Assembly (NCBI GenBank): GCA_010094045.1
Contig: ML986660.1
Location: 124,001 to 188,000 of the forward strand
Origin: Lojkania enalia
Lineage: Eukaryota; Ascomycota; Dothideomycetes; Pleosporales
DNA: 64,000 nt
Direction of reading: 5' to 3'
Part shown: positions 11,450 to 64,000 of the stretch, in pieces
Numbering within the stretch: position 1 is the first letter of the stretch
Layout: every line of letters begins with the position of its first letter
Notes under the pieces: generated by a model
Seen by the model: the letters and a program-made list of their open reading frames with translations, nothing else
Database searches by the model: none
What the model was told of the DNA's origin: nothing
Position numbers and translations under genes: made by a program

Positions 11450-12240
11450 GGTGCTGATTGTACCCAGGTACCTGGGTAGTCCTTCCTAACAGCGCTGCCT
11501 GGCTGCGGAACGGGGACCTGCTATAACAGCGGCAAGAGTGGGGGAGAGAGGGACGCACGAGAGACAAAGCAACGCCCACAATACTCCGTAGTAGGTCCTG
11601 GCCGAGGGTGAGCATGGCGGGGGAGGGTATTCACGCCTTACTGCCCGGCAATAGGTATATTTGGTGGTGCCCCACCATGGGCTTGCCTACCCCGCTGGTG
11701 TCCATCGGTGGTGGGTTTGGTCTCGGAGATGCAACTAGGTACTGCTACTAGGTCGGCAATGGGTAATGATGCACACACGGTTCGCTACGGCCGCCGGCTG
11801 TTCGCGGTTCTCTGGGCATAAGGTACCGGTGGTGCCGAGGTCATTCCGACCGCTTAGTTACTACCATAACCATCTCCGCTCTCAGCGCCAAGACCCCCAG
11901 CATTCCGAGTATGCGCGTCTTCATTCCGAATGCCGTCTACAGTCGCATTTTGGTCCTTAGGACCCAACGACGTCTTCTCTGTGTGCTTGTCGTTGGTGTT
12001 GGGACTTGTCCATCTATGCTCGCGCAATATTTGCTTCGCGGAGGTCTTGGTAGTCGATAGGCAATCTTTCAACAACCTTCCAAGGTCAGGATCCTGGGGA
12101 CAAGCGCGACGTGAAACAGCTCCTGGTTTCATCCGTCCGCGCCCGTGACCGTATTCAAACACTCAAATGTCCCACGCCAGATGTGATCCTAAAACTCGTT
12201 GCCCAAATGTTAATCTTTTTCTAGCTATCTGCCCGCCGAC
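11450..12240. other. Divergent promoter region (ThDP enzyme / SET protein)
   Basis: About 0.8 kb between two divergently transcribed genes, with many short antisense frames but no coding structure. The exon-1 leader of the ThDP enzyme probably lies just above 11449. I see no distinctive operator motif. Confidence 0.45.
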
Positions 12241-13305
12241 ATGTCCCTTAGACTCTCAACGATCGTTTCCTGTATCTCAGTTGTCTTGGCGTCATCCGTA
12301 ACCTCGAAGGGCTTTATTCCATTTCCACATCATCAATTTGATAGTCGGTCATGGAATTCTCAGAATCCCTCTTGCTCAGGCTCTCCTCTGAACTATGTTG
12401 TTCTACCAAGTCTTGGAAAAGGTCTCGGGGTCTTTGCGGTCCGCGCTCTTGAGGTGGGCGATATTGTCATGCAAGAAGCGCCGGCCCTATTAGTCCACCC
12501 GCCACCATTCAGACAAGGGATGGGATACAATGTCACAGAAGTTGGAATTCGTGCTCGAGCCGCTTTTGAAGAACTCTCAGAAGACGCCCAGGCCGAGATT
12601 ATGTCTCTCACAGCGTACTATCGTCCGGCAGAAGCTAGGCTACCTGGGTTTGATCTTCTCAAGGCCATATTCAGCAGCAATGCGTATAACACAGGGGCCG
12701 ATCTTGGACTGTTCCCCAAAATCGCGAGAATTAACCATTCCTGCCGTCCTAACGCCGGCTATTCCTGGAACGCCGCCATTGGCAAGCGGGTTGTGTACGC
12801 AAGCAGGAAAATCGGTGAAGGGGAGGAGATTACAGTCTCATACATTCCGTTGTTACTCAGTGTATCGGAACGTCAAAAGAGACTAGATCCATATGGCTTC
12901 AAATGTGGTTGCGACGCTTGCGCTGCAGAGGAGAGCGCACGGAAAGCTGGAGATAGACGAAGAAGAGACATCAGAGATGCCTTCAACCAGCTAGAAAGAG
13001 AATCCATCTCGGACTTGGTCAATGACAAAGCCGGAAACAAAAAGGCCCAACAGTTAGCAAGACAGAGTGCTAAACTGGCACATCTCGTTGAAGAGGAACA
13101 GTTGCCCGACTATTATGCTAAAGCGTCTCGACTCGCCGCGATTTTTCATGCCCGAATACAAGACTGGGAACAAGCAACTAGGTGGGCGCAAAAGAGTTAC
13201 GAGTTAAGACGAATGGCCGATGCCGAATCTAAAGAAACGAAAGAGATGCATGCACTTACGAACAATTTGATTGCGAGCTGGAACAACGAAGGAGCAAAGC
13301 CATGA
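12241..13305 (+). CDS. SET-domain protein with N-terminal signal peptide
   Basis: Intronless, 354 aa, starting at an ATG. Residues 1-20 form a hydrophobic leader typical of a signal peptide. A split SET domain follows: GKGLGVFA at 59-66, NHSCRPNA at 165-172, and GEEITVSYI at 194-202, which includes the catalytic Tyr. The post-SET cysteines are at 222-227 (CGCDAC). The C-terminal third is helical and charged, like the TPR-like tail of SMYD/SET5-type proteins. The fold predicts a lysine methyltransferase using S-adenosylmethionine. A leader peptide on a SET protein is odd, but signal-bearing SET proteins recur in filamentous ascomycetes; substrate and location are not known from sequence. It lies divergent to the ThDP enzyme. 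Confidence 0.88.
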   Translation: MSLRLSTIVSCISVVLASSVTSKGFIPFPHHQFDSRSWNSQNPSCSGSPLNYVVLPSLGKGLGVFAVRALEVGDIVMQEAPALLVHPPPFRQGMGYNVTEVGIRARAAFEELSEDAQAEIMSLTAYYRPAEARLPGFDLLKAIFSSNAYNTGADLGLFPKIARINHSCRPNAGYSWNAAIGKRVVYASRKIGEGEEITVSYIPLLLSVSERQKRLDPYGFKCGCDACAAEESARKAGDRRRRDIRDAFNQLERESISDLVNDKAGNKKAQQLARQSAKLAHLVEEEQLPDYYAKASRLAAIFHARIQDWEQATRWAQKSYELRRMADAESKETKEMHALTNNLIASWNNEGAKP

Positions 13306-13549
13306 CCAAAGGTCGATGAACGCAGCCGGAATGCTAAACCGTGATCTTGGTATAGTCCTACCCATCAGAACACTGCGATAGAAGCCTCGTCTTCTGAAGT
13401 CGATACATTGGAGCGTCGAAACCACAAGTTGTCTTGCTTGAATTCGATCCCTCGCTTCACGGCCCACATACCCGATATTTTAGCCTAATCCGTAAAGCAA
13501 GCTGCCTCAGTGCCGCATCACAGAAATATATCAGCCCAAACATCGCTAT

Positions 13550-14488
13550 ATGCCTTCTTTGTTCTCTCAAGAAATTAGCTTGATAAAAATTCCCCTATCA
13601 CGATCCCCACCTAGCATGTCTCGACTGATAGACCAATATAAGCTTACAAGCAAGAAGCCCATGCGCGTGTTGATCCTGTCGATGCCAAGGACAGGTCAAT
13701 CTTCGCTCGTTTTCGCGCTGCGCAAGCTCGGATATACACCCCATACAATGCGGACACTCCTTTCGGACCCTTCCCACATCCCGCTCTGGCAAGAAGCCGT
13801 GAATACAACTCTACTACCACAAGAGGATCGCCCAGCACATCAACGCAACGCCCCACCCTACGGCCGCGAGGAGTTTGAAAAATTGCTCGGCGATTACGAC
13901 GTAGCTGCTGATCTGCCTAGTGCAGTTTTCGCAAAAGAGTTGGTCGAAGCGTACCCAGAAGCAAAAGTCATTTTAACGACAAGAAACTACAAAGACTGGG
14001 AAACAGACATGCAAAACTCACTCTGGATTTTCCTTACGTGGCGTCTCTTTGCGCTGTGTCGCATCTTATATATCACACAATGGGCGCCAGTCATTAGCCT
14101 ATTACACTCCATTTTCGCCGCTCATAATAAAAACACTTACTCCGGGCCTTTGGCCCGGAAAGCATTCGAGAAGCATAACGAGACGATCCGGAACCTTGTT
14201 CCATCTTCGAACCTTCTTGAATTTGATGAAAGGGATGGGTGGGGTTCGATATGCGAGTTTCTAGGCCACGAAGTACCGAATGAGGCGTTTCCGAGGGTTG
14301 TAGAAGGGGGACAGATGAGACAGGGCTTAGAAAGGGCGTGGTGGCGCATGGTACAGTCCGCTGTCCTAATACTGGCATTACCCGGGTTGGTGTGCATAAT
14401 AGCTTATGCGGGGTGGAAGTGGCAGCATGATATATGGGACATTTTGGATGAGGTCCTGGAGCGATCGAAAAAGCTATTGAATATGTAG
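13550..14488 (+). CDS. Sulfotransferase-like protein (fungal Sulfotransfer_4 type) with C-terminal membrane anchor
   Basis: 312 aa from the first ATG; an in-frame ATG at 13616 (MSRLIDQ) would give 290 aa and may be the real start. The P-loop-like 5'-phosphosulfate-binding motif SMPRTGQSSL follows a beta strand (VLILSM). Downstream come a DVAADLPSAVFAKEL segment and VILTTRNYKDWE, which match the layout of the P-loop sulfotransferase-like family common in fungi (once labelled NAD-dependent epimerase in many annotations). A hydrophobic helix near the C-terminus (VLILALPGLVCIIAYAGW) suggests a tail anchor. The acceptor substrate is unknown. No cluster partner is visible. Confidence 0.8.
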   Translation: MPSLFSQEISLIKIPLSRSPPSMSRLIDQYKLTSKKPMRVLILSMPRTGQSSLVFALRKLGYTPHTMRTLLSDPSHIPLWQEAVNTTLLPQEDRPAHQRNAPPYGREEFEKLLGDYDVAADLPSAVFAKELVEAYPEAKVILTTRNYKDWETDMQNSLWIFLTWRLFALCRILYITQWAPVISLLHSIFAAHNKNTYSGPLARKAFEKHNETIRNLVPSSNLLEFDERDGWGSICEFLGHEVPNEAFPRVVEGGQMRQGLERAWWRMVQSAVLILALPGLVCIIAYAGWKWQHDIWDILDEVLERSKKLLNM

Positions 14489-15028
14489 AATGATGAATCC
14501 CCATAGGTGAAAAAATGATTTGATAAAGACGGGATAAGCTCATCAAGCTTGGGAGTGCATGAGTTGCCGGTTGTTCAGACGCTGTGTCACAACATGAAAG
14601 AGCGCGTCCAAAGTGAAAACGGTTTCTAGAAAAGATACCGGATCTTGTCATGGCGATTCGGAAGTGGACTTTAGTTTCTGCTCCGAGTTTCGTGTAATCG
14701 AGCAACTCGATTATTCCTGTAAGTTGTTCTATTAGCCAATTCGGAAAACGAAGCGCGTCGGTTTCCCACTTTAGGACGCCGTACGAGGCTAGGTTCTAAA
14801 GTGTAAAAGTATGTAAGACTGTGAAATTTCAGGACTCATTTTATACTCTTCGAATTGAGGAACAAATTTGGCAGTTTCTTTAGCGCTAGAAGCCGGAACA
14901 AGCGATCAGGGTGGCCAAAATACAGCCAAAAAGGATCGCTTAGGTGTGCGCGATGTGGTTCGAACACCTTCGGTCCATCTTCTTCAACACAACACCTAGA
15001 ATTATCCCCTAAAACGCGTCCCCCCCCC
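14489..15028. other. Intergenic region between sulfotransferase-like gene and tRNA
   Basis: No gene is seen. A C9-A12 homopolymer tract at 15020-15040 forms part of the Pol III terminator of the minus-strand tRNA. Confidence 0.5.
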
Positions 15029-15045
15029 AAAAAAAAAAAAGAAAA
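15029..15045 (-). terminator. Pol III terminator of the tRNA-iMet gene
   Basis: Read on the minus strand, a TTTT run (15045-15042) and then, after one C, a T12 run (15040-15029) begin 16 nt after the tRNA 3' end. This is a standard RNA polymerase III stop and supports an active transcription unit. Confidence 0.7.
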
Positions 15046-15061
15046 TATATGTAGTCCCATT

Positions 15062-15186
15062 TAGCTAAGCTCCGTTTCGACTTCTTTTGTCAGTAATTCC
15101 GAGTTGCAGATATTAATTGATGGAGTCGCTTACTCAGAGGTCCTCCGGGTTATGAGCCCGGCGCGCTTCCGCTGCGCCACTTAGCT
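15062..15186 (-). tRNA. Initiator tRNA-Met (CAT), interrupted in the T-loop
   Basis: Minus strand 15186 to 15062, 125 nt; 72 nt after removing 15133-15081. Acceptor AGCTAAG pairs with CTTAGCT over 7 bp and includes the initiator-specific A1:U72 pair. The D-arm GCGC/GCGC carries a good A-box (TGGCGCAGCGG). The anticodon stem CCGGG/CCCGG has the GGG:CCC hallmark, with loop CTCATAA and anticodon CAT. The variable loop is AGGAC. The T-stem CTCTG pairs with CGGAG through one G:U, and the T-loop ATCGAAA carries A54, which marks eukaryotic initiators. The discriminator is A. The gene is split between A54 and T55 of the T-loop by 53 nt (separate entry). The B-box core TCGAAAC stays intact downstream of the insert, and a Pol III terminator follows. 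An alternative reading is a pseudogene broken by an insertion, but precise restoration by GT-AG removal argues against it. Confidence 0.8.
15081..15133 (-). other. 53-nt GT-AG segment inside the tRNA T-loop (candidate spliceosomal-type intron)
   Basis: On the minus strand the segment begins GTAAGC, carries ACTGAC about 10 nt before its end (a good fungal branch-point match) and ends GAAG. Its length matches the protein-gene introns in this window (47-80 nt). Excision leaves CTCTG-ATCGAAA-CGGAG, an intact T-arm. It is not at the usual tRNA intron position 37/38. I see no obvious bulge-helix-bulge at its junctions and no flanking target-site duplication. Confidence 0.65.
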
Positions 15187-15778: not shown

Positions 15779-18700
15779 ATGAGCGACTACTCGCCGCACA
15801 TAGACACATCTTTTGATCCTGCAATCCATCTCCACTCTGAACTTGCAGTCCAATCCGACTCGCACGCGTCGCTCTCCTATTCCGACGAGCTCGAGGCTTT
15901 GCAGCAGTGCATCGAAGAGACTAGGGCCCTGAAGAATAGGGCAGGCGTCGTGATTCAGCATAGAGCTTGGAGAACCGCCGACGTGTTCAGGAGCGAAGAG
16001 GAGTATCCAATTGGTATCTACAATACAAGCGGTGCCGCATGAGGACTTTTAGGACTAATTGCACTCAGATACGCCTTTAAAGCGTCTCAACAATTCTTCC
16101 GCTGCGTACTGCCCTAGCGGATTATCTGCAGACGGGCACATCTTCCCATCGTCCCCGCCTTGCATTATGCCTCTGATCTCGTCGCCAATTACATACCCTC
16201 CCATCTCGTCCCCGCAACACACTTCGCCGAAGAAACGCAAACGGCCGGATGCTGAAAGGAGTCCACTAAAGGACGTACATATCAATCAGCCTGCCAAGAG
16301 GGCTGGCGGCTTTCTTGACGACTCAGATGATGACGAGGACCTAGCTGCGGCGGAGGAGCACGCGCTAAAGAGACGTGCGATTGATGGTACCAACTGGGTT
16401 TCCCCCCTTCGGGATGTTCAGGTAGACCCTACGCCTCAGATTGCGAGTCAAGACGAAATAGCAAACCCCGAGACTATCCCGGTCGACGAACTAGATGATA
16501 TCTTCAGGTCGCCCTCACCTATAAAGCCTCGAACAACAACTGGGAGCCCAACGTCCTCGCCAAATCTAGGACACACTGCGCGCCTTCTATCCGGACAGAC
16601 AAAGTATATCCCCAAGAAGGCTGAGAAGGCCTCTGTTTCATATGAACAGCTCATCGCATCGCGGTCTACTACGCTTGAGGGTCGAGCAAAGAATAGTTAT
16701 TATGGGATTGACATTCATCGTTTGATGGAGGAGGCGCAGGTCGAAAATCGTAGCGATACCTCCCATAACGTTCCGCAGATCTCAGCAAAGCAGCCTAAAC
16801 CACAAGTCAAGCCATCCAAGAATGGCAGGACATTGATGTGGACTGAGAAGTATCGCGCAAAAAAATTTACAGATCTGGTGGGCGATGAACGTACACATCG
16901 ATCCGTACTCCGCTGGCTAAAAGGCTGGGATTCCATTGTCTTCCCAGGATCAGCAAAGATTAAACCAAAAAGCAAAAGGAGAGAAGAGCAGGAAGAACAG
17001 AAACACCGCAAGATCCTTCTGTTGACAGGGCCGCCTGGGCTAGGCAAGACAACTTTGGCACACGTTTGTGCTAAACAAGCCGGCTACGAGGTTCAGGAGA
17101 TCAACGCTTCCGATGAGCGAAGCCGAGATGTCGTAAAGGGTCGAGTTCGCGACATGGTAGGAACTGAAAACGTACGTGGTGTCAACGCGGATACAACAAA
17201 TGGGAAAGTACGAAAGGCTGGTAAACCTGTCTGTGTTGTTGTAGACGAGGTCGATGGCGTCGTGAGTGGGAGCGGAGGAGGTGGTGAAGGCGGATTCATA
17301 AAAGCACTAGTCGACCTGATCCGTCTAGACGAAAAGAACTCAAAATTAGCGGGTCAACAACCTGCTACTGCTGCCAAGCAGAAGAGAAAAGGCGATAAGT
17401 TTCGACTATTGCGGCCCCTTATTCTAATATGCAATGATATGTATCACCCGTCATTACGACCACTTCGACAATCATCATTTGCCGAAATCATCCACATTCG
17501 CAAACCGTCTCTCAACATAATGGTCTCCCGTGTACAGAATGTCTTTGACAAAGAGGGCATCGCTTGCGACTCTGACGGCGCCCGTCGGCTATGTGAAGCA
17601 ATTTGGGGCGTCAGTACGAAGAAAGAAGGTGGCACCGGTAGCGGCACGGGCGAGGGAGATATACGCGGTGTGATGGTGGTCAGTGAGTGGGTTGCTGGCC
17701 GATTGCGAGCTTCCCATGCTCAAATCAACGAAACACCACGATTGACAAGGCGTTGGGTGGAGGAAAACGTCATCAATGACCTTCACCACGGTGGTGGAGC
17801 CGTGCGAGGCTTGGGACGTGGTGGAGCCAAAGATGTGGTCGATCGAGTTTTCCGTGAAGGCGCTGGCTTTCCAAAACAAGCTGAGATAGCGCCTATAGCG
17901 GTTCAACAGGGCAAGAAGGGGGCGATCGGCGTGGCCGAGGCAGCAAAGCAATGTGCAATGCAGAGACTGAGAGAAATGGTCGATACGAGCGGCGACTGTG
18001 ATCGAATTGTCACAGGTACATCCATTTCTAGTTTGTTCTTTCATCTATACTAATTGAATTACCCAGACTGCTTCACAGCATACCCAGAAAAACCATTCCA
18101 GGACGACACTCTCCTTAGCAAACCATGCGCGGCTTTTGAGTGGCTCTACTTCCATGACCTGCTCTCCTCTGCCGTCCATGGCTCTCAGGAGTGGGAACTC
18201 GCGCCTTATCTCTCACAATCGGTTCTCGCCTTCCATGACCTTTTTGCCTCTCCTCGTCAACAAAGTACGAATCAGATGATAGACTCTGGTCCCGACGCCT
18301 CCTTCTCCGGGCCCAGCGCAAGCTTTCATGCAGCTGAACAGCAAAAGGCCAATCGAGCCCAGCTAATGGGCTTATATTCTTCTCTTAGCTTACCGTTGGC
18401 GCGTATTTTCCGCTCTCCAGAAGAGCTTGCCACCGAATTTCTTCCATACGTCCTACGCATCCTTTCGCCAGATGTTAAGCCAGTGATTATAAATAGTGGT
18501 GTTGTAGGATCAAAATCTGCAGCCACCGCATCTATTCGCAAGGCCTCAGAGAAGGCCCTTGTGAAGAGAGCGGTGCAAGCAATGGCTGCGACTGGCGTCC
18601 GTTTTGAGAAGAGCAGGGTAGAATTCGATGACACCACGAATAAAAATAGTGGATGGGTATATCGAATGGAACCTGCGCTCGATCAACTTGGCGCTTTTGA

Positions 18701-19073
18701 TACTCTTGATTACAAGAAAGAAGAAAAGGTCCGATTTGCAGTTCGAAGTGTGCTAGAAAGCGAATGGAAGAAAGAGAGTGCGAGAATGGATGCCGAGATC
18801 CGACGAAAACGTGGTGGGCAAGTTGACGAAGAAACAAATAGAGAGCAGAACGCAGATGACGGGGAAACCAAAAAGACTGAGGTCAAGGAGGAGAAAGTCA
18901 AGAGGGATTTCTTCGGCAGAGTCATGAAGGAGAAGGCCGCTGTTTCGCGTGATGCAAAGCTAAAGATTCAGGTTGAAGGGAACCAGGGGAGGATTTGGGT
19001 GTCATTTCATGAAGGGTTTTCAAATGCAGTTCGAAAGCCAATCACGCTTGATGAGCTTATGAGAGGATTATAG
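15779..19073 (+). CDS. CTF18: CTF18, large subunit of the alternative clamp loader CTF18-RFC
   Basis: Exons 15779-16013, 16069-18015 and 18067-19073 total 1063 codons (1062 aa). Introns are 55 and 51 nt, both GT-AG with actaat-type branch sites. The AAA+ core has Walker A GPPGLGKT at about 399-406 and Walker B VVVDEVDG at about 468-475. A WTEKYRAKKFTDLVGDE lead-in precedes it, as in Rfc1/Ctf18. After the second intron comes the Ctf18-type segment DCFTAYPEKPFQDDTLLSKP and FEWLYFHD. The long Ser/Pro-rich N-terminus and Lys-rich C-terminus fit the family. Known role: with Rfc2-5, Dcc1 and Ctf8 it loads PCNA for replication and sister-chromatid cohesion in the nucleus. The frame extends upstream only to a TTG, so the ATG at 15779 (MSDYSPHID) is chosen. 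Confidence 0.93.
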
Positions 19074-43974: not shown

Positions 43975-44640
43975 ATGCTCCGCAACCCAGCTTGTCTTGC
44001 CATTGCGGCCATGTCCGCCATTGCTTTTATGACGCAACCCGCCTATGGACAGTCCTCGAATGTCACACTATTCAAACCTCCTACACTTGTCCCATTTCTC
44101 CACATTGACCTGAAAGTTGAGGACACAACGTTTGTGACCGCCACCAATGGAATTATTACTGGACAGGCTAATAACCAAGGCGGTAAGCGATGTCTCTCGA
44201 CTTCACAAGAAGATAGTAGGACTAACTGAAGTCAAGGCAACTTTACTGGCGCCATAACCGGTCAAGTTCTGAAACTCGGCACGGAATTTGAGACATTTCC
44301 AACAGCTGCTAACTTTACAGAAAGTGTAAGTAGCCGTGATGCTGCATTTCCTTCATTATATTGCCTCATGAGCATACGCTAATGTCGTGAGCTGTAGACT
44401 TACGACAATGTCTTCACATTGCTTACTACTGATGGGACAACAATCCTTATGAGCGTCCGCGGATACATCCATTACACTGGGAACCATCTACATGGCTTTT
44501 CCCGTATGGAGTTCTCCACCGATTCCGCGGATTACCAATATCTGAGTTATGGTAATTATGTCTCGGAGTTTGATGCCACTTATCCTTCAGGCAGAGCCTC
44601 TGTGGATGTGTTCGAGATGCAAACCAGCGGGCACTACTAG
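43975..44640 (+). CDS. Secreted DUF3237-like beta-barrel protein
   Basis: Exons 43975-44182, 44237-44325 and 44398-44640 give 180 codons (179 aa). Introns are 54 and 72 nt, GT-AG, the first with a CTAAC branch site. Residues 1-26 are a signal peptide ending near AYGQS. The mature part reads ITGQANNQGGNFTGAITGQV, then a TDGTTILMSVRGYIHYTG-type strand pair and a C-terminal SVDVFEMQ. Alternating beta strands with GxxTG and DGT turns resemble DUF3237 (a small beta-barrel fold of unknown catalytic role). Several N-glycosylation sites support secretion. It is the last intact gene before the A+T-rich block. Confidence 0.65.
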
Positions 44641-45249
44641 GGGTTCAATCATAGGATAGCTGGTGAGAGAGGGGATTTGGCTCCTCCCTGCACGTAATTC
44701 AAGAAGTCGGGATGTTATCCTGAGACCTTGGAAAAAAAGGAATTTGAGAGCGTAGAATAGAGATGGTCACTTCTTCCGTCGGGCTCTGCTCGGGTCCTAT
44801 CTTTGATAGGTTTATAACAATATATACTTTTATGCCTACTTCTCCTGGATCGAAGCACCTCTAGGATTTAAGACCCCTGGTTATACCACAATATTATCAT
44901 AACAATAGGCGAAAATCCATCATATTGGTCAAATACTTCCCGAGATGGACCAGGCTAGTATATGCGCCTAACAATAACGGGCCCCTATCCGCATGCGACG
45001 CTATTATATTGAATGTAGCTATGGATGCAAACAACACCTATTAGCCGTATTCAGAGTTATAAAATATTCTATTATATCCTATAGAGTACTACGATAGTTA
45101 TACTATATATATATAGCTAAAATTAATGGAATTATACTTAATAAGGTGGTTAAGAAAAAGTAAGAAATAAAGAATTAGAATAGTATTATAGAACGCTTAT
45201 ATACGGTTGGTTAAATATACTTTAGATAGTTAACTCTATTACTAGAATA
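44641..45249. other. Boundary from normal DNA into the A+T-rich block
   Basis: Base composition shifts between about 44.8 and 45.1 kb from mixed sequence to almost pure TA-rich text with CA and TG scarce. No gene is seen. Confidence 0.6.
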
Positions 45250-45990
45250 TATTCTATTATCGAAGTAGCTACTCTATTAAAACGGCCACTTTTTCTTAGC
45301 GTTATAAGCACTATATACGAACTATAATAAATCTACAATACAACCTTCTATTAATTTAATAAGAAGGTAGAATTAAGCTTACCTTATAAGTATAACGATG
45401 CGAAGAAATCGTTCCACGAAAAGCTTTACATGTAACCTTATCCTAAAGCTTTTTACTTATCTTATCCTACCCCCGGCTCCGCCTCTTTTCCCATCTGTAT
45501 ATAGTTGTACACTCCCTTATAAGTAGCTTAGTAGTTCTTCTATATCCTTTTATATAAGGCCTATAGGTGTTAATAGAATTCCCAGGTCCCTAAACCCCTA
45601 TATACTCCTATATACCTCTAAGTAGATTTGTGCCGCATTTAGACCTATTATCTTACCTATACTATTATAATAAGTATATAAATTAGGCTAATTTAAAAGC
45701 GTATAATACGCTACTATAGTTTATAATATATAATATTAATAACTCTCTACTTAACTTTATAGAATCGCGTTTTAATCTTATATATAACTAAATTACTAGA
45801 AGCTTATAATAACCGAAGAATAAATAATTATATAATATCTTCTTAACCTTAATTTATAAGAATTTACGCTCTAACTATATAAGGTAGTAGATATAATAGA
45901 TAAACTATTAGGTGTATATAATAGAATATTTAAAATATATATAAATAAGTTTAAAATAGTCTTTAATTAAATAAAAAATTATTAAAGAAT
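45250..45990 (+). mobile_element. Truncated pogo/Fot-type element, inverted copy
   Basis: Starts with an end sequence like the TIRs of the next element (TATTCTATTATCGAAGTAGC, CTTTTTCTTAGCG). Stretches around 45.3-45.4 and 45.66-45.93 kb are reverse complements of 49.65-49.83 and 47.57-47.74 kb. It thus represents one end and N-terminal coding part of the same element family, in the opposite direction, with the rest missing. Boundaries are approximate. Confidence 0.5.
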
Positions 45991-46106
45991 AAAATAAGAG
46001 AATTTAGAGGTTATTAATATATAGTTTAAGTTTAATATATTCTACTATTAAAGTAGCTACTCTATTAAAATAGCTACTTTTTCTTAGTATAATAAATACT
46101 ATAATA

Positions 46107-49100
46107 TATTCTACTATCGAGGCGGCTAAACTATTAAAGCGGCTACTTTTTCTTAGCGTAATAAATACTATATACAAAAAGTTAATTTACTTAATACTAA
46201 TAAAAGATTCTATATATAATATACTTTTATCTAATTTAGAATTTTCCCTACTATCTTTTTAGTACGTACGAGCGTTATATCTAGTCTTACTATAGTTACT
46301 ATAGTAGCGTTAAGCTGGTTAAGCCCTTTCTTAAGTATTAGTACTATAAGTCTTCTTAAAGAGTTAAGAGTTTATAGATACTTTAGCAGCTATATATAAA
46401 AATCCCTTACTATATAATACTATACTACTATACTAAATATACTTTCTTTTATACGTTTTATACTTAGTTACTTCTTCTAATTACCTTTTAAGCTTAGAGT
46501 TACAAGCTTAAAGAAGTATATTCTAATATAGTATTAACTTAGCACCTTTTATAAGCTATAAGAATCCTTCTTATACCTCTTTTAGTAATTATATAAAGGA
46601 TTTTTATATAAGTATTAATTGTAACCTAAATTTATATATATATTACTTAGAGTTTTAGACTACTAAGAGTCTTCTTATAAAAGTAGTTCTAGTAGGGTAC
46701 GTAGTTATATATTAAGATAATCTAATATAATCTATACGTTTAAAAGAATAATTCCTATTACTTTAAAGGCTTTTTAATAGTTCTTATATATAAATATATT
46801 AAAAAACACGTTTTTAAAGGCTGGAAGGAAGCTTTTTTTATTAATATAGTAGATACGTTAACGCGCTAAGTTTTATACGCGCTATAAGTACTTTAACTTT
46901 AATAGTAAGAAGTAAACTATATTAAGAGGCTAAAGTATATACAATAAATAAGAAAGTATATAAAGCGTTAGAATCTTTTATATAAGGTAGTAATCTTTAA
47001 ATTTCTAGTTAAGGTGGCTTTTATAGCTGTCTAAAATAAGTAGCCTATATAACTCTATCTAATATATCTTTATATACTTATTAAAGTACTTTAGCTACTT
47101 AAGACTAAGTATATTATTTATCTAGCCGTTCTTAGAGACTAAAATTTTTTAATTGTATAGTATACCTACTTCTTTATACTATATAGAGATATAGATATAT
47201 CCTTTATAAATAATAAATAGTAGAGTTGTATATATAGTAGTATAGATACTTTAGATAACTATAATCTACTCGTAATTACTTAGCTGTATAAGAGTAGGCC
47301 TTATATAATATTCTAAACCTATAATAACCTTTATAGTATTAATAACATCTATTTAAAAGCCTATCTTATTAAAGTTGTAGATATTATTATTATATATGCT
47401 ATATTTTGCAATTATATCCCGTACGAGTTTAAACTATATGTTAATAACTTCTAGATTCTCTTATTTTATTCTTTAACAATCCTTTACTTAATTAAAAGCT
47501 ATTTTAAACTTGTTTATACGCGCTATAAATTATTTAGGCTAATTCTTTCCTATAGATATTCTACTACGTACGCCTAATAATTTATCTATTATATCTACTA
47601 CCTTATATAGCTAAAGCGTAAATTCTTATAAATTAAGGTTAAAAATATATTATACGATTATTTATTCTTTAATTACTATAAGCTTCTAGTAATTTAGTTA
47701 TATACGAGGGTAAAACGCGATTCTATAAAGTTGAATAATATATTTATAAGCGAGCGGCCACTATAAGTAAATAGCTACCTCTACTAACTTTTTACGCCTT
47801 TACAGCAATCTATCTTAATAACATAATAAGATAATTATAATATTTAAACTACGCTAGATTAAGGAATATCTATAATATCTTTCTTATAAGTTCTTAAGTT
47901 ATAGCTAGTTTTCCTATAGTAGCTGTAGTACGCTAAAGCCTACTAACTTATATTTAATTACGCCTTACCTTAATATATTTCCTCCTCTAACTACTACTTA
48001 ATATCTTTTTAAGTAATAATATCCTCTACCTCTACCTTTATTAAGGTATCTTTCTACTAGATCCTCTTCTTTTTACACTTTCTACGCGTTATAGTAGTCT
48101 TATTTACTTTCTTAAGTCTTATAATCTAATTATATATAAGTATACTTTCGTATACTATTACTTTAGTACTTTTTTTAAGCTGGTTAAGTACTATAATAAT
48201 AGAAGTAGGCGATAAGCTTTTATACCTCTAAATTCTATCGCGAATTAATATTAATTAAGCGTCTAGCTTACGCATATTACTTAGTATTTTAGCTTCTTAG
48301 AGGGTAACCTCTAGCGCAGGTAGTATTAGCGTATAAAGTTTAATATTAAGCTTTAATATTACCGCCTTTAAATTATATAAAACTAGACTAGCGCTTTAAA
48401 AGTTTACGTAGATATTCTCTTTTATAATTAACTACTTATAAGCTGTATAGAAGGTAGATAAGAACTTTAACTTTATAATATAGTTAATATAGTTATATAT
48501 TAAGCTTTTAATCTAGCGCCCGTACGCGCGCTTTAATAGTAAAAAATAGCTAATATTAAGCAGCTATAGAAGATGCGATAAATATAGTAGTATATAGAGA
48601 GTATAGATATTATTCTCCTTATAAAGCTATTAGAATTTAAGCGAGTTATAGCTTTTATAACTATTAAGAATAAGTAACTAGCACGCGCCCACCCTATACT
48701 CTACTATATATTTAATAAAGTGCTTTAACTACTCTACTCTAAGCTTATTAGTAGTCTAGCTGTTATTACTAACTGTAAAAGCCCAGTCGTATAGTATATT
48801 ATCCTTCTTATACTATATAGAGAGATAGTACTAGCTAGTAAAGATAATAAAGGGTAGGATTATCTACCTAGTAGCATTAACTGTATAGATTACAGTAACC
48901 TACTTATAATTATCTAGCTAAATAGCTTTTAGTTTACCTCGTCTCTCTAAGCTAGTAATAACTAGCTAAGCTAATATCTTACCTATTATAAAGCCTGTCT
49001 TATTAAAGTTAAAGGTATCCTTATTATAAATACTATAAGTAGCTTTTATACGTACTATAAGGTTGAACTAAACTCTAATAGTTTCTAGATCCTTATATAG

Positions 49101-49805
49101 GGCTCTCTATTAATTATACAGCCGATTAAAACGCGTAATAAGGCTATCTATTTACTTAACAAAGTTGTGCAGCTATAACTTACTAACTTAGTTAGTACCG
49201 TATTTAGTAAGCAGCTTATTTACTATATCTTATATAGTATCTAATATAGGCGGAAATCCTTACAAATCTAGGTTAAGTATATATCTAGTTATTACCTCCT
49301 CTTCTAGCTAAGTAAGCTTCTTTAAGTTAGGCTAGTAATTATATTATATAGTAATTCTAGCGTATTATTATTGTAGAGTTGTTCGGGGGTAGATATAGAT
49401 TAAAGTAGCGTATTTTACGCTACTTATTTAGTATTAATTTATAGTTAAGATAGTAAGAAAAATATCTACTTTATTATAGGGCAATTAAGAAGTAGTTAGT
49501 TAAGCTATTATAGTTAGAAGGTAACACGTCGCGAAAAGTTAGTAGGGGTAGCCGCTCGCTTATAGTAGCCGCTCGCTTATAAACACGTTAGAGAGTTGTT
49601 AATATTATATATTAAAAGCTATAGTAGTATATTATACGCTCTTAAACTAGCCTAATTTATATACTTATAAGGTAAGCTTAATTTTACCTTCTTATTAAAT
49701 TAATAGAAGGTTATATTATAGATTTATTATAGTTCGTACGTAGTATTTATAATACTAAGAAAAAGTGGCCGCTTTAATAGTTTAGCCGTTTTAATAGTAG
49801 AATAC
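46107..49805 (-). mobile_element. Pogo/Fot-type Tc1-mariner element 1, RIP-decayed, split by element 2
   Basis: Terminal inverted repeats: TATTCTACTATCGAGGCGGC at 46107 onward matches the reverse complement of the end at about 49805. Subtracting the inner element (47744-49583) leaves 1859 bp, the usual size of Fot1-like elements. On the minus strand around 47.05-47.4 kb the degraded frame reads a DDE transposase core: IYNFNKIGF (the D(E)TGF block), RPTLIQL, FIIYKG, then LLILDSYKSH (the LILDGHxSH block). The numerous TAG/TAA and K/I/Y substitutions are those expected from C-to-T on both strands. A further end-like copy lies at 46.03-46.1 kb. Confidence 0.7.
47744..49583 (-). mobile_element. 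Pogo/Fot-type element 2, nested in element 1
   Basis: About 1.84 kb with inverted ends: TATAAGCGAGCGGCCACTAT at 47744-47770 and its mirror at 49540-49583. The right end carries the GCCGCTCGCTTATA unit twice as a direct sub-repeat. The minus-strand degraded frame near 48.75-49.05 kb contains FNFNKTGF, LPFIIFT and a WAFTVSNNS block, i.e. a DDE transposase of the same class but a different subfamily from element 1. It is inserted inside element 1's transposase region, so it arrived later. Confidence 0.65.
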
Positions 49806-51426
49806 GTTATATAAAAAGTTAACTTACTTAATATATAATAGCCTCTAATTAGCTAGGTATAGAATAGAGTAATAACTAAAAGTAATTATATATTATAGAG
49901 GATTATTTTTATAGGTTTATAATAGAAGTATATAAGTAGAATATATAAAGAATATTTAAATTAATTATAAAGAGCTATAAATATTAGAGTTATAAAGTTA
50001 TTAAATATAATTTAACTCCTCTACTATTCTTCCTATTTAGTTGCTACTTAGTAACTAGGCGGACTTAGTAGGATAGTTTTAACTAAGTTATTAAACTGTT
50101 TATATAGTTAGTTTTATTTACTTATCTATATAAAGTTCTATACTTTAATAGGTTCTAGTATAAGAGTATTTATAATACTATATCCTCTTTTTAAACTCTT
50201 AGTCTAAGAATTATACTATTTTCCTTAATTATATAGTAGGGTTAGTAAACTACTTATACTTTCTTTATATACTTTTCTAATATCTTCTTCTTACTATTTT
50301 ATACTAAGTTACTATTACTATATTAACTATATTAATTCTTCTAGTTTAATTATAATATCTTATTTTTAATATTTTTATAAGAGGCTAATATATAAAATTA
50401 ATAAAAAGTAGACTCTAAAATAATTATACTATTTTAAATACTTCTAGTCTAATATATAGTTATTTTATAATATTTTCTATAATACTTAAAATATTTATAT
50501 ACTTTAATTCCTTTATTAATTTATAGTACTTATATATAGTAGTAGAATATTAGAATAAAAAGGTTAAGAAGTTAGATTGCTAGTTTTAACTAGTTAAAGA
50601 GAAGTACTAAAAAATCTTAGATTAACTATAAGATATAAATAGTAAGGTAGTAGTAGTTTAAATAAAAGTTTAGTATCTTTAGAAAATTTATAAGTAAGTA
50701 AAATATAGATATATAGAAGGTTATAAATATATATAGGAGTAACTTAAGGAAGAGAAAGAAGTAGATTATAAGATAGGTCTCCTTCTTAAAGTAGAGTTAC
50801 CTTTTATAATATAGCTAATATTATTTAATTCTATTACTCTATTTTTAAAACTTCTTTATAAGTTTAGTTTTTATAATATATTTATAATATTATAAGGCTA
50901 AAGTTCTCTTCTAGTTCTTAAATATTATTCTATAAATTTCTATACTTATCTATTTCTAACTATTTAATTAGATAGTATTATTTATAATTCTATATCTTAT
51001 ATTTTATTATTTTCTAGATTTTCTATTTTTAGTCTTCTATATATATATCTAAGCTAGTAGATAAATATAGATTAGATTAGGGTTAGGGTTTTATATAAGT
51101 AGGGTAGGATTAAGGTTAGAGTTTTACTAATTAGCCTAGAGTATAGATAGAGTTAAAGTAGCTACTTAGTAATAGAGTATAGGTTAAGGTAGAGTTATAT
51201 AGATTAGATTTTCTTAGAATCTAACTAATTAGTATACTTTAGAAAGTAGCTTAGTAAGAGTATATATAGTATAATATTCTAGAATTTTATTATAGCTATT
51301 TATTATAGATTAGACTAATCTTACTTTATTAGATTCTAGAGTAGTATACTATAGTATATTATAGACTATAGTTATATACTTCTTAACTATTAATTTTATA
51401 TACTTTAATCTAATATAATAATATAT
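49806..51426. other. A+T-rich RIP-type DNA, unassigned
   Basis: 1.6 kb of decayed sequence. A plus-strand frame around 50.57-50.83 kb reads like a Lys/Glu/Gln-rich coiled coil with TAG/TAA interruptions but belongs to no family I can name. A short TTAGGGTTAGGG occurs near 51.08 kb. Confidence 0.4.
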
Positions 51427-53285
51427 AGTATAAGCGAGCTGATTACCTAAGTAAACTAATTATAATACTAAGACTATACTAAAATCGCGACTACTTTTTG
51501 CAAAATATTATACTTTCTTATATTCTATTATACTATATAATATAGTAGCCTATTCTTCTATATCTATAGTATTATTTTTATACGTCCGCGAGTTATATCT
51601 AGCCTTACTATACTACCTATAACACCTTTAAGTCGGCTAGTCTCTATTAACGCGCGTTTTCTTCCTACTTTTCTTTCTATTAATATAAGCGCTAAACTCT
51701 TTTAGAGTAGTTAATTAAGCGCCTTCTTTAATTATTAAATTACCTTCCTTCTATATACGCTTTCTTTTATATAATTAAAGTTATATAGCAGCCTTATTAG
51801 CTGCTTAAAGCTTAGTAACTTAAGTATATAATAGTACGTTTTTATATATTATATATACAGCACCCTTTATAAACTATTTAAATACCTCTACTATTAAAGT
51901 AAATAAGCTATCTAAATACTTTAAACTCTTAATTAAACGTATATAGATTAAGACCTAAATTTAATAGGATTACTTAGTATTTTTAACTTCTAAAAGGTAT
52001 TTTTAACTATAGAAGGTATTAGTATATATAGTCGAACTTTAAGCTTTAATAGTACTATATCTAGGTTAAATAGAACTAGGCTAGTACTTTAAAAGCTATT
52101 TAGGATATTACTATTTATAATTGCTACGTTAAAAGCTGCTTTAAAGTAGAGTAAGAACTTAATTTTTATAATATAGTTAATATAACTACGTATTAACTAC
52201 TCGACTTAGCACCCGTATATAGTCTTTAAAGGTAAGAAACAACCTATATCTAGTAGCTATAGTAGGTGCGACAAATATAGAGGTATATAGAGAGTAATAA
52301 TATTCTTTTCCTTATAAAGCTGCCTAAATTTAAGCGAGTTATAGCTTTTATAGCCGTCGAGAATTAGCAATTAATATATACTAATAGTACAATCCTTTAT
52401 ATATGCGTTAAAGTACTTTAACTACTTAATACTAATATTATTTATCGTCCAGCCGTTATTAGTAACCTATATAGCCTAGGTTAGTAGAATATCGTCTTCT
52501 TTATACTATATAGAGAGGTAGTAGATACCTGTAAAGATAATAAAAGGTAGTATTACCTATCCTATCGTATTAATACTCTAAATAACTATAGTCTACTCGT
52601 AATTACTTAACTAGAGCTACTTTAGTCGATTCTATCTTTTAGAGTTAGTAACTACTACTTCTATTAATATTACATCTATTATAAAGCTTAATTTATTAAA
52701 GTTATATATATCTTTATTAATAATACTATACTTAGCCTTTATATTCTATATAAGGTAGAACCAGCCTCCTATAACCTTAGAATCCTTATATTTAGCACTT
52801 AAATAGTCGTACTTTTAATTAAATTTAATCTTAAGCTTAGGTGTATATTTAATAAAGTTCTCTACCTAGTTTTCTAATCTAGCTAGTAGAGTATATAGCT
52901 AGTAGTAAATTAGCTATATTTTAAACAGTAGTAAGTTGTAGTAGAAATTCTCTTATATCTAGATCTAATATATACTAAATAATTACCTACTCCTTAGTCT
53001 TACTAAGCTTTATTAAATTAGGCTGGCAATTATATTATAGAGCTATTCCTTACCTTTATATACTAAATATACTTTAGGAGATATTATAGATTAATATAAT
53101 ATAACGTATAGTTAGTATTACGTCTTATTAAAGAGCTTAGAGTATAAGCTATATTCTAGCTTCTTTCTAAATTAATTCTATAGTTGTTAATTATAGTATA
53201 ATACTATAAAGTATAATTATCGCGATTTTAGTAGGGTTTTAGTATTATAATCAGCTCGCTTAGGTAATTAGCTTACTTATACTAT
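51427..53285 (-). mobile_element. Pogo/Fot-type element 3, RIP-decayed
   Basis: About 1859 bp with inverted ends of roughly 65 bp: AGTATAAGCGAGCTGATTAC at 51427 onward, mirrored at 53220-53285, sharing the TACTAAAATCGCGA motif. The minus-strand degraded frame at 51.9-52.8 kb contains IYNFNKLSF, FIIFTG, LLILDGYKS, LSHLLQLLD and, toward the C-terminus, LVLFNLDIVL. These are in the order of Fot/pogo DDE transposases. Stops are TAG/TAA. Confidence 0.7.
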
Positions 53286-53379
53286 ACGTTAATATATTTA
53301 TAATAGTAATTTATTATATAAACTATAGAAGTTTATAAATTTCTTAACAAATATATTTTTATAGTAGCTTCTTATTAGT

Positions 53380-54900
53380 AATAATATTAGAATTAATATT
53401 CTTCTAGTTAATCTCTAGTTCTTTATTATATACTTAAGCTAGAAGTTTAAAGAGATCTATAACCTTATTAGTACTATAAAAAGGGCTTAGCTTACTAGTA
53501 TTTTAGGCCTTTATAGCCTAATATACCTCTTTAGTATAATAGTTTTCTTCGCTTATTATATATTTTAGAAATATAATATCCTAGATTCTCTATATAGTAA
53601 GGTAATATCTTTTATCTTTAATTATATTTCTAGTAGTATTAAAACCCCGTTTAATACTAACTCCTATAATTTATATTAGAAGAATATTTCTTATAACCTA
53701 AGTAAGCCGCGGATACTAATATTTATTTACTCTCTACTAGTCTAATATATTAAAGTTATAACCTCGAATAGAAGGTATACTTAGATAACTTTCTTCTTCT
53801 TAATAAGTTGGTCCTTTCTCTTCTTCCTCTAACTCTTCTTCTCCCTCTCTCTCTTTCTCTTCTATATTACTTAAATCCTAGTCTAAGAAACTTAAGGAGT
53901 TACTTAAAGATAAATATTATAGAAATAGTTTATAAAACTACTTATTACTTTATATCTATTAAAGTTGGAGTATTATAGATAAAGTATAATCTAGTATATT
54001 CTTATTATAGTAATTAAGATATTTAAGGAATTGTTAATAATAGATTTTCTTATACTAAAAGTTCTAAGTTTTATCTTATAGTTATAGTTAGAAGCTAATA
54101 TAATAAATAACTATAATAAAAGTACCTTATATATTATAAGCTTCTAGGATAAATCTAAGATTATTATATAGTTAAACAAGTAACTATACTTTATATCTAT
54201 TTTTAAGTAGTATTTACTTAATTTAAATCGACCCTTCTCTACTATAGCTCTTACTACTATTAGCTAATCTAAGTTACTCTCTATATCTTTAGCTAGATTT
54301 CTATTTATATTATCTAGAAAATCGAAGAGCCTATTATATATTTACTAAATATTCTAGATCTAAGGCTTTATATTTTTACTAAGTACTTTAGTTGCCCTTT
54401 TAAAATTGTTAAGCAGGTCTATAATTAGTATTAAATAGTACTATTTAGTAGTAGATAGTTAAAGTTACTAGAGATTATAAAAATCTACCTTAGTATTCTT
54501 ATTATTACCAGATTTCTAAGTAGGGATTTTTAAGTTAATTTTATATTAAAACTAGTTATTAATATATTATTTAAGGCCTACTACTTAGTTATATATATTA
54601 AATATCGAATTTTATTAAGTTAGGATATCTTTTATTATAGATAGCTAGTATTTAGATAGTAGGAAGTCCTGTAAAATAATAAAATACTTATAGTACTATA
54701 GTAATCGATTAATTACTCTATAAATAGCTTAAATTTAACTAGAAATTAGTATATAATAACTATAATAACTAACTATAATAAAAAGCTATATTTTATAAAG
54801 AGAATTTAAAATAGAAATCTATATTTAGATCTTATTTATATCGCGTTGCTATAAAGTTCCTCTATCTCCTATCTCTTTAAGGGGTACGAGTTTAAGATAG
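53380..54900 (-). mobile_element. hAT-type transposase relic, RIP-decayed
   Basis: The minus-strand degraded frame reads, from 54.4 kb downward, a block ending KIDIKYSYLFN...ILDPSRKL, then a Lys/Arg-rich linker. Near 53.55-53.72 kb it shows a hAT dimerisation-type block (YPRLTQVIRNILPI, then VSIKRGFN...RNII). Order and spacing fit the C-terminal half of a fungal hAT transposase. TIRs and target-site duplication were not found by eye, so limits are approximate. Confidence 0.6.
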
Positions 54901-56076
54901 TAAATAATTTCCTAAATAATAAGATTGATAATATAAGTAAGATATAGAATTGTATTCTCCTCGCAGTTCTATTTAATACTATCTTTATATAGTTTCTCTT
55001 ATATCGTATATATAAGTATACTATTATTAGTAGTATTATCGTAGGTAACTACTAGTAATTATTGTTGTATATTTTTATTTAATAGAATATATAATACTTC
55101 TATTACTATAGAAGTACTAGTATAGCTTCTTCGAATAGAGATAAAATTAAGTAGTTTCTTATAAAACTCCTAGTCCTAATTAATATAATACTCTTTTACT
55201 ATAAGGAAACTAAGGTAGTTTTTTACAGACTAGGTATTAAACGTAATTAATATCTTTATACTTTAGCTAAGATTATATAAAAGAGAGGATTAAGCTATTA
55301 TAATTTTATACTTAAATAGTTTTATAAAACTAAATTAGCTAATTAATATAGTATCTAGTTGGAAGAACTAAATAAATTATTAAAAGAACGGGTAATCTAC
55401 TATTTAAAAAGACTAGTTAATAATAATAATAATAATAATATAGACTAGTTTATACTTAAAAATGCTAGTAGAATATAGTAGTATAATTAGATCTTTATTA
55501 TTAGGAGGCCTAGCTATAGGTATATAGAACCTATTATACTTAGAAGCTAGAGTTTTTAGACAGGCCTAGAATCTAAAGTAATTTATTAGATACTTTATAC
55601 TATTATAATTCTTATTTAAATATATAAGTCGAAAACTATAGTAGTAATAGAATATAAATAGATAACTATCTAGAAATTATACAGCTTCTCTAAATTATCT
55701 CTAGATCTTACTATAATAAGTAGCTAAATTCTACCTTAGTTTATTAAGTATATTTAAAGAGTTCTAAGCCTATAGTATTAATTTCTACTATACTATCTAT
55801 ATATTAATAAGTTCTATTACTCTCTATCTATCTTCTTTATCTACTATCCGTAGATATATAATTAGCTGATAGGTTTCTTAAAAACCTTAATAGAAAATTG
55901 ATAGAGTATTAATTATAAGATATTAGATTTATATTAGTATTAATATAACTATAATAAAATACTATAATAAAGAATAGTAGGAATATTATAATATTATAGG
56001 TATATAAGGAGTTAAGGTTAATGATTGAGAGTATCTAACTATAAATTATATTTGTAGACTACTACTACTACTACTT

Positions 56077-56112
<36 letters not shown>

Positions 56113-57696
56113 ATATATATAAAACTCTAGTAAAATAGTAGTATATTATACTATTATATTAAGTATTTATTTTTAGAGATAATAGGTTTTATTACTAAAT
56201 AGTATACTAATACTATACTCTTAGTAGTATATAGAAGTCTACTATAGTATATTATAAAATACTATAGTCTAGAAAATACTATAAAGTATAGTAAATTACT
56301 ATTATATATTATAAAGTATAGTTAATTACTATTATATACTATAAAGTATAGTAAATTACTATTATATATTATAAAGTATAGTTAATTACTATTATATACT
56401 ATAAAGTATAGTAAATTACTATTATATACTATAAAGTATAGTAAATTACTATTATTTAATATACTATAATATACTGCAAGATACTATAGTATACTATCTA
56501 GAATCTAATAACTACTCTAGTCTATTTTACGATATACTACTATAGTCTATAATATAGTATAATATACTACTCTAGTTAATTAAGTTTATATATATAGGGA
56601 AGTAGTATAAATAAAATTTATATAGTATTAGAAAAGTATATTAGATTTTCTTCTACTAATTACTAGTAGTAAGGACTAAGCTAATTCTTATTTATTAAAG
56701 TATTATTATCTAAGAAACTATTAAAGTTAGTTATATCTTTATCTAAGAAGCCTTTAAAAGTACTATTTAACTTCTTACTTAATATCTTATATTTATCCTT
56801 ATATTATATAAGCTTAGCCTTAATTTTAGAGTTATTATTAACCTCCTCTTCGCACTTATCGCTTTTAATACCCTTAATATAGGGTAAGTTCGAATTAAGA
56901 AGAAAATTATTATCAAATTAATTATATACTAATAGAGGCTCTTAATATCTAAGGTAGTAATTAGTATATATCTATAATAAATAGATATAATAAAAAATAT
57001 AATAAACTTACCTCTATTCTAACTTTAAGATAATAGCTAACTCTTCCTTAGATAGTCCCTTAATAAACTCTTACTATTTATTTTAAGTATTCTTACTTTT
57101 AAAGCTATTATTTTATAGTTTAAAAAGGCTATCTTAGTATATCTTATATATAACCTTCTATATAGCCCTTCTAGAGCTATATACCCGTAATAGACTACGA
57201 GCTGATTCTTATATAGTAGATATATCTTTCTCTTAACTAGTAGCCTTTAATAGAACTGCTTAGTAACGTCTAAAGTTAAACTCTTAGTCGATATACTCCT
57301 ATTTTAAATAGATAGTTTTTAGCTTTACCTTTAACTAATTATCTATTTACTTATAAGTATATATATATATAATAAATAACTATAATAACTTATTAGACTT
57401 ATAATTGTTAAAGCGCTTCTCTACTATAGCTTTAATAGTTTTATCTAATATCTTTTTTTTTCTTCCCCTATGTTATAAATATAAAACGCTAAGAGGTACT
57501 GCTTCTGTAGCTAGGGCTTAATCTAATATCAGCTACTATATAGGTCGACTTAGACGAGAACTAATAAAGTAATAATAGGTAGAAATATATTAAGAACTAG
57601 TTATTAAACAGTAAGTAATAGGACTACAGGAATTAGAGAGATAATTAGTTAGACGATAAAGTATAGTACAACCTATATACGTGATAATAGTAGAAG
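54901..57696. other. A+T-rich RIP-type DNA with simple repeats and a minus-strand coding relic
   Basis: Includes (AAT)n at about 55418-55440, (ACT)n at about 56057-56111 and a 30-bp tandem array (separate entry). On the minus strand, from about 57.48 to 56.65 kb, a decayed frame reads protein-like text (for example FIKGLSKEELAIILKLE and SNLPYIKGIKSDKCEEE). It is probably part of another transposable element, unidentified. Confidence 0.45.
56281..56460. repeat. 30-bp tandem repeat, six units
   Basis: Six consecutive 30-mers begin at 56281, 56311, 56341, 56371, 56401 and 56431. Two variants alternate (core GTAAATTACT versus GTTAATTACT), so 56281-56340 and 56341-56400 are identical 60-bp double units. 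The last two units are both of the first type. The array is A+T only apart from the GTA and CTAT motif positions. Confidence 0.8.
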
Positions 57697-57871
57697 TGTC
57701 AGGTATAGTAGGTTGGACCTAACAAACCTAACAGACCTAGTAAGCTAAGGTCTAGCGGTCTTAGACCTAACTATATAAGATAGAAGATCTTCTTAGTAGA
57801 TTAGGTCCTATATAGTTATTCTCGTAGATTTATCTTATTACTCTATTAGACTTTTAAATATATTTATTACA
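57697..57871 (+). repeat. Candidate 5' LTR of the Gypsy element
   Basis: A TGTCAGG...TTATTACA segment of about 175 bp with an internal TATATAAG lies just upstream of the gag relic. Position and TG...CA ends fit a 5' LTR. The 3' LTR is not inside the window, so this cannot be confirmed here. Confidence 0.45.
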
Positions 57872-63659: not shown

Positions 63660-63960
63660 AACTTAGAGTAATAGTAGAGGGCGCCTTAGATCTAGCAGAC
63701 CTCCTCTTCTCTTCCTCTAACTTCTCTTACTCTTCTATCAACTTTATCTCTTGTTTCCTAAGATCTAGACTATACTCCTTTAGAAAATAGATGTATTTCT
63801 TAGTATACTCTAGGCGAGAAAGAGCTATCTAATAGTAATACGCAGATTCCTTAAGATAGTAAATCTCCTCTTTCTTAGTAGCTACGAAATCTTAATAAGT
63901 AGAAGTAGACTCCTTATAGGCCTTTAATATATTCGCTAGGAAACAGCAAAGGATACTCTT
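63660..63960 (-). pseudogene. Antisense coiled-coil frame downstream of the chromodomain
   Basis: On the minus strand one frame stays readable for about 95 codons with only four TAG/TAA interruptions: VATKKEEIYYLKESAYYY, ALSRLEYTKK, LDLRKQEIKLIEE, EKLEEEKRRSARSKAPSTI. This is a heptad-like Lys/Glu/Leu pattern. It runs opposite to pol between the chromodomain and the expected 3' LTR. It could be an accessory antisense gene of the element or a captured fragment. Confidence 0.45.
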
Positions 63961-64000
63961 AGTTAAAGAAAGATCGCAGAACAGACCCTAAGAAAGGTAT

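Follow-up and report, generated by a model that had tools for sequence, protein, structure and literature searches.

Each of the initiator tRNA-Met genes found in the genome of Lojkania enalia, a marine fungus of the Pleosporales, very probably carries a spliceosomal intron in its T-loop; the gene would be transcribed by Pol III, the insert would be removed by the spliceosome, and a B box downstream of the gene possibly takes part in transcription. The kind of intron is known. To the extent that the literature was searched, its location is new, both in being a tRNA and in being shared by all the initiator genes found: none of the matches listed (judged by titles and abstract openings, mostly of open-access papers, with no bioRxiv preprints) concerned a spliceosomal intron in a tRNA. 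The preliminary description of this DNA, which knew of no account of such an arrangement, agrees with this.

The initiator tRNA-Met gene in the window

The window, meaning the whole stretch of 64,000 nucleotides that was analysed, contains the gene on its minus strand at 15186-15062. The parts of the gene and the elements that follow it are:

15134..15186, minus: 5' exon of the initiator tRNA-Met (A1 to A54), containing the A box and the anticodon CAT; length 53 nt, 53/53 the same in the two other copies
15145..15161, minus: anticodon stem-loop CCGGG-CTCATAA-CCCGG, with CAT at 15154-15152; from reading the sequence, and called Met(CAT) by ARAGORN on the spliced form
15081..15133, minus: insert with the look of a GT-AG intron, lying between A54 and U55; 53 nt, sole register with the loop AUCGAAA
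15089..15094, minus: ACTGAC, a motif like a branch site (fungal consensus RCTRAY), 9 nt before the end of the insert; the branch A would be 15090
15062..15080, minus: 3' exon of the initiator tRNA-Met (U55 to A73), with TCGAAAC, the core of the cut internal B box; 19 nt
15029..15045, minus: T-runs like a Pol III terminator, T4 at 15045-15042 and T12 at 15040-15029; from reading the sequence
14956..14966, minus: TGTTCGAACCA, candidate extragenic B box, its GTTCGA starting 97 nt past the tRNA; TGTTCGA also lies 3' of the other initiator genes and of the good U6 genes

The features from which the preliminary description had recognised an initiator (A1:U72, the G:C pairs of the anticodon stem, CAT and A54) are present on this strand, as are the 53-nt insert GTAAGC...ACTGAC...AAG that splits the T-loop and the T4/T12 terminator after the tRNA. 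Excision of the insert leaves, as had been claimed, a tRNA of 72 nt with all seven acceptor pairs, all five T-stem pairs and the loop ATCGAAA. The spliced product shows A1:U72, the G:C anticodon stem, CAU, A54 and A60 and has no T54, a combination that I take to be the mark of a eukaryotic initiator tRNA-Met. The locus is an initiator tRNA-Met gene, its role in initiation being predicted.

No tRNA is detected anywhere in the window by ARAGORN, or by Rfam at gathering scores. When the inserts are removed, ARAGORN calls tRNA-Met(CAT) for all three copies of the gene in the genome, and it calls no tRNA in the unspliced forms, so that tRNA finders may overlook initiators of this kind, none being called by ARAGORN at the three loci. 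Since the program is also satisfied with 8 of 12 registers that are off by 1-2 nt, it cannot fix the position of the cut; the conserved T-loop does so. The folds of the three precursors have z-scores of -1.75, -2.13 and -1.89.

Initiator genes in the genome

The search of all initiator loci that the preliminary description had proposed was carried out over the 58 Mb of the genome (an assembly in 400 contigs), by similarity and by patterns allowing up to three mismatches. It found three genes, all of them split in the T-loop:

Copy 1, C83:139062-139186: the gene in the window; insert of 53 nt
Copy 2, C17:325982-326109: insert of 56 nt
Copy 3, C1:296518-296647: insert of 58 nt

No uninterrupted initiator gene was found: a pattern for the 5' half of the tRNA (up to three mismatches, 58 Mb) matched just these three genes, and a pattern for the intact stretch from anticodon to T-loop, with the same tolerance, had zero matches in the genome. 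Several uninterrupted copies elsewhere had been named beforehand as a sign of a pseudogene with an insertion, and neither similarity nor the two patterns brought any to light in this genome. Six further matches to the initiator pattern (five in viral_contigs and one in genome_contigs) are all uninterrupted and have a GTTC-type T-loop, and are therefore not eukaryotic initiators.

The first 53 nt are identical across the three genes. Copies 1 and 2 have the same tRNA over all 72 nt, and copy 3 agrees with it at 71 of the 72 positions, its single change turning a G:U pair of the T-stem into A:U. Alignments of the inserts contain 31/56, 32/63 and 34/68 identical columns (50-55%), and the flanks of the genes (1.4-1.5 kb) gave no blastn match at E 0.01 in any of six comparisons. 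The inserts of copies 1 and 2 score as they do in 16 of 500 shuffled pairs, and these two may be one intron by descent; the insert of copy 3, equalled by 208 and 230 of 500 shuffled pairs in its comparisons with the other two, has no detectable similarity to them. Because copies 1 and 2 are perhaps related, the three inserts are not fully independent, and the shuffle probabilities given below are not to be multiplied.

Register of the insert and splice signals

Gene by gene, all positions from nt 42 to 65 were taken in turn as the last one before the insert. Several registers close the T-stem, and one per gene gives the loop A54 U55 C56 G57 A58 A59 A60. That register is, in all three genes, the one in which the insert begins with GT and ends with AG. 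Copies 1 and 2 are cut at 54/55 and copy 3 at 55/56, a shift of one base in the 3' direction; the exons would join CTCTGA to TCGAAAC and, in copy 3, CTCTGAT to CGAAACAG. An exact cut and join at GT and AG allows such a slide with the RNA unchanged. Among shuffled inserts (200,000 trials per copy, those for copy 3 using copy 1's exons), the combination of GT..AG with a preserved tRNA came up in 0.22%, 0.75% and 0.19% of cases for copies 1, 2 and 3, as compared with three out of three for the real inserts.

The donors are GTAAGC in copy 1, GTGAGT in copy 2 and the weaker GTGGGA in copy 3. Copy 1 has ACTGAC as a branch-like motif and a second AG 3 nt upstream of the inferred 3' splice site, copy 2 has ACTGAT further up and GATAAC near its end, and copy 3 has ACTAAG, which fits RCTRAY at five of six letters. 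RCTRAY is described as the fungal branch consensus, at a spacing of 6-36 nt, in the available text of PMC5832005. At 6-36 nt before the AG it occurs exactly in two of the three inserts; shuffles contain it exactly in 4-10% of cases and with one mismatch in 43-63%, and at such frequencies the branch motif by itself is weak evidence.

Introns of the host were represented by two in CTF18, a gene within the window, both fixed by the NCBI Lojkania enalia protein:

16014-16068, plus: CTF18 intron, 55 nt, GTATCT..ACTAAT..CAG
18016-18066, plus: CTF18 intron, 51 nt, GTACAT..ACTAAT..CAG

Against this reference of two introns, the inserts (53, 56 and 58 nt, as compared with 55 and 51 nt) are similar in branch motif and AG and differ in their donors. 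Joining of open frames ab initio was too noisy to be used, and a protein comparison of laccases offered no protein named Lojkania among the best 120 of 373 matches.

How the insert may be removed

The GT-AG ends and the RCTRAY-like motifs point to an intron of the U2 type. In the proposed course of maturation, Pol III would transcribe the initiator gene through to the downstream T-run, and the major spliceosome would remove the intron of 53-58 nt by way of ordinary donor, branch and AG signals; the T-arm would fold, and the tRNA would be finished and used, only after that removal. The intron cuts the internal B box, and TFIIIC may use the downstream B box (TGTTCGA...), in the way that this genome's U6 genes seem to. 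I infer from the sequence the splicing itself, the machine used, transcription by Pol III and the use of the downstream box. The idea that this tRNA needs the spliceosome or another non-standard route to mature, put forward in the preliminary description, gains support from three split genes out of three, a sole GT-AG register in each and the lack of a bulge-helix-bulge. Weaknesses of the spliceosomal reading include the 3' exon of just 19 nt, the second AG near the 3' splice site of copy 1 and, in copy 3, the less convincing donor and the inexact branch motif.

Introns of eukaryotic nuclear tRNA genes normally sit at 37/38 and are cut by the tRNA endonuclease. The present inserts might be non-canonical introns handled by that endonuclease and a ligase, as is assumed for the ectopic introns of archaea and of the red alga Cyanidioschyzon merolae, and I consider this improbable. 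The enzyme is presumably present, since ARAGORN marks ordinary introns in 28 of 47 tRNA genes of this genome (some of its placements and anticodons look unreliable). Ectopic introns also lie outside the usual site, and those of C. merolae often interrupt the A or the B box (PMC3978253, in the text available), but they are tied to a bulge-helix-bulge, and there is none at the junctions here: at the registers that give the product, the central helix has 2, 2 and 1 of four pairs, and over 36 registers there was one chance match (copy 2, cut 48), not in a tRNA-giving register. Cleavage by the tRNA endonuclease had been named in advance as the observation that would speak against a spliceosomal route, and these structures give it no footing. 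The inserts differ from the many ordinary introns of nuclear tRNA genes in this genome in lying at 54/55 or 55/56, in possessing a branch-like motif and in their GT..AG ends, which have been kept though the inserts diverged, whereas tRNA splicing relies on structure and not on GT-AG motifs, according to the available part of a 2026 review (PMC13149111). By the same part of the review, the splicing of tRNAs does not depend on the spliceosome, and the account of tRNAscan-SE 2.0, in its available text, takes non-canonical introns to be something found in archaea (PMC8450103).

It is quite unlikely that the three genes are pseudogenes with insertions, the real initiator being absent from the contigs or changed so far that the searches did not recognise it. 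A true gene could be missing from an assembly in 400 contigs, and the searches, by similarity and by patterns, reached to three mismatches; against this, the letters of the tRNA are kept at 72/72, 72/72 and 71/72 where flanks and inserts have drifted apart, all three genes retain T-runs and TGTTCGA downstream, and two patterns found no intact copy.

Introner-like mobile introns, which occur in Dothideomycetes, could have spread recently and landed in initiator genes by chance, as the distant likeness of copies 1 and 2 might suggest, but there is very little chance of this, for there are not many near-identical copies (each insert matches itself or other initiator loci alone in a search of 58 Mb with very common words skipped), copy 3 has no detectable similarity to the other inserts, and the idea bears on the origin of the inserts and not on their removal.

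Promoter elements

The B box of a tRNA gene comprises positions 52-62 (PMC3978253, in the text available), and an insert in the T-loop therefore cuts into it. An intact initiator would match GGTTCGANTCC at 7 of 11 letters (N counted) and the cut copies match it at 6, 6 and 5; in copies 1 and 2 the core TCGAAAC is unbroken. As the match falls only from 7 to these values, the internal half may still work.

Downstream of the genes, TGTTCGA occurs on the gene strand within 120 nt in all three initiator genes, with GTTCGA at +97, +5 and +8. It is likewise found downstream of both U6 genes above the Rfam cut-off (GTTCGA at +23 and +83) and of none of 47 other tRNA genes, all 47 of which have an internal GTTCRA. 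These controls are the tRNA genes in 46 RF00005 loci (L007-L036 and L040-L055), and they form a partial inventory: 63 of 2591 first-look candidates were scored, giving at least 46 matches. The shorter GTTCGA lies downstream of two of the 47, at +96 in L031, where it is the neighbouring tRNA's own B box, and at +101 in L041, where no second tRNA was called in the fetched stretch and a neighbour does not explain it. For the GTTCGA enrichment the hypergeometric probability is 5e-4 when the three initiators are counted by themselves and 8e-6 when both U6 genes are included, figures that are guides and not formal tests since the motif was found by looking. At a chance frequency of about 3% per 120 nt, the site at +97 of copy 1 could have arisen by chance, and those at +5 and +8 weigh more.

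By the full consensus the downstream sites score 8, 9 and 8 of 11 letters in copies 1, 2 and 3. Sites of at least 8/11 are common in the flanks (9, 7 and 8 for the three copies, counted on both strands from -250 to +400), so that only the core TGTTCGA discriminates. The core lies past the T-run in copy 1 and in the U6 genes, and before the T-run, in the 3' trailer, in copies 2 and 3. Upstream TATA-like scores of the initiator genes are no different from those of 31 ordinary tRNA genes, nor does upstream A+T content set the initiator genes apart. The U6 genes considered were:

L037:1501-1600 (contig C41): U6 gene above the Rfam cut-off, intronless, TGTTCGA downstream
L038:1501-1599 (contig C60): U6 gene above the Rfam cut-off, intronless, TGTTCGA downstream
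L039:1501-1605 (contig C66): weak U6 match, 41.1 bits against an Rfam cut-off of 44, changed at many positions, the 500 nt downstream containing no GTTCGA; it may be a U6 pseudogene

The TGTTCGA 3' of the two good U6 genes is likely an extragenic B box. The SRP RNA gene has GTTCGAGTCC internally, and the next forward copy is about 1.3 kb downstream.

With the internal B box cut by the intron, TFIIIC may rely on the downstream box, and I think it rather probable that the initiator genes use that box, a candidate TFIIIC site. An initiator that has A54 and A60 departs from the B-box consensus even without a cut; the external box might therefore be older than the intron and have made it tolerable. 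The motif downstream on the gene strand in the three initiator genes resembles the promoter of S. cerevisiae SNR6, which has an intragenic A box and a B box beyond the terminator (PMC11346459, in the text available). I know of no tRNA gene with an extragenic B box arranged as in SNR6.

A further step is to suppose that the entire cytosolic supply of initiator tRNA hangs on the spliceosome of mRNA, initiation being thereby tied to splicing, and that the genes have come to resemble U6 in having a working outside B box, the inner one having been cut by an intron. I lean toward this only slightly, the cost of the cut to the inner box, no more than one or two consensus letters, having lowered my estimate. 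If true, a tRNA would need the spliceosome to mature, and this would be the initiator, on which the making of all proteins depends. It could then be tested by what path an RNA made by Pol III reaches the spliceosome, whether splicing stress affects initiation and what allows a gene with a damaged internal promoter to persist.

Comparison with spliceosomal introns of other small RNAs

Spliceosomal introns are described in the U6 and U3 RNA genes of fungi (PMC5832005, in the text available). The U6 introns of Schizosaccharomyces pombe and other fungi are, like the present inserts, short introns in a small structured RNA made by Pol III. Here the host is a tRNA, the site is the T-loop and the B box is cut, and the good U6 genes of this genome are intronless (2/2). 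The introns of U3 snoRNA are again ordinary spliceosomal introns in a small RNA, but one of another class, and their positions shift slightly among Dothideomycetes (both points from the available text of PMC5832005).

Other RNA genes and surroundings

A search for other tRNAs split in the same way, with the pattern GGT|GTRNG..AG|TCRANNCC, gave nine matches as compared with six in a reversed control, and none of the nine, taken in one reading per match, has five T-stem pairs. Two patterns drawn in part from the general consensus found no elongator tRNA-Met, their four matches sitting on known RF00005 tRNA genes with other anticodons. There was no match to RNase P RNA, and the controls of that search gave none either. 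A pair of tRNA genes with 9 nt between them, on one strand, occupies L031:1393-1607: Gln(CTG) and a gene called Ser(CGA) by ARAGORN.

Within the window, CTF18 (chromosome transmission fidelity protein 18; 15779-19073, plus) is divergent from the initiator gene and starts about 590 nt from it. The protein is 100% identical, over 98% of the query, to one of Lojkania enalia, and after Lojkania its best named match belongs to Zopfia rhizophila. On the other side of the tRNA, at 12214-14488 on the plus strand, are open frames that encode a SET domain and a Sulfotransfer_4 domain. The end of the window (44001-64000) is an AT-rich block, with a G+C content of 23-30% as against 43-54% elsewhere in the window. 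Such blocks arise in fungi of this kind by repeat-induced mutation.
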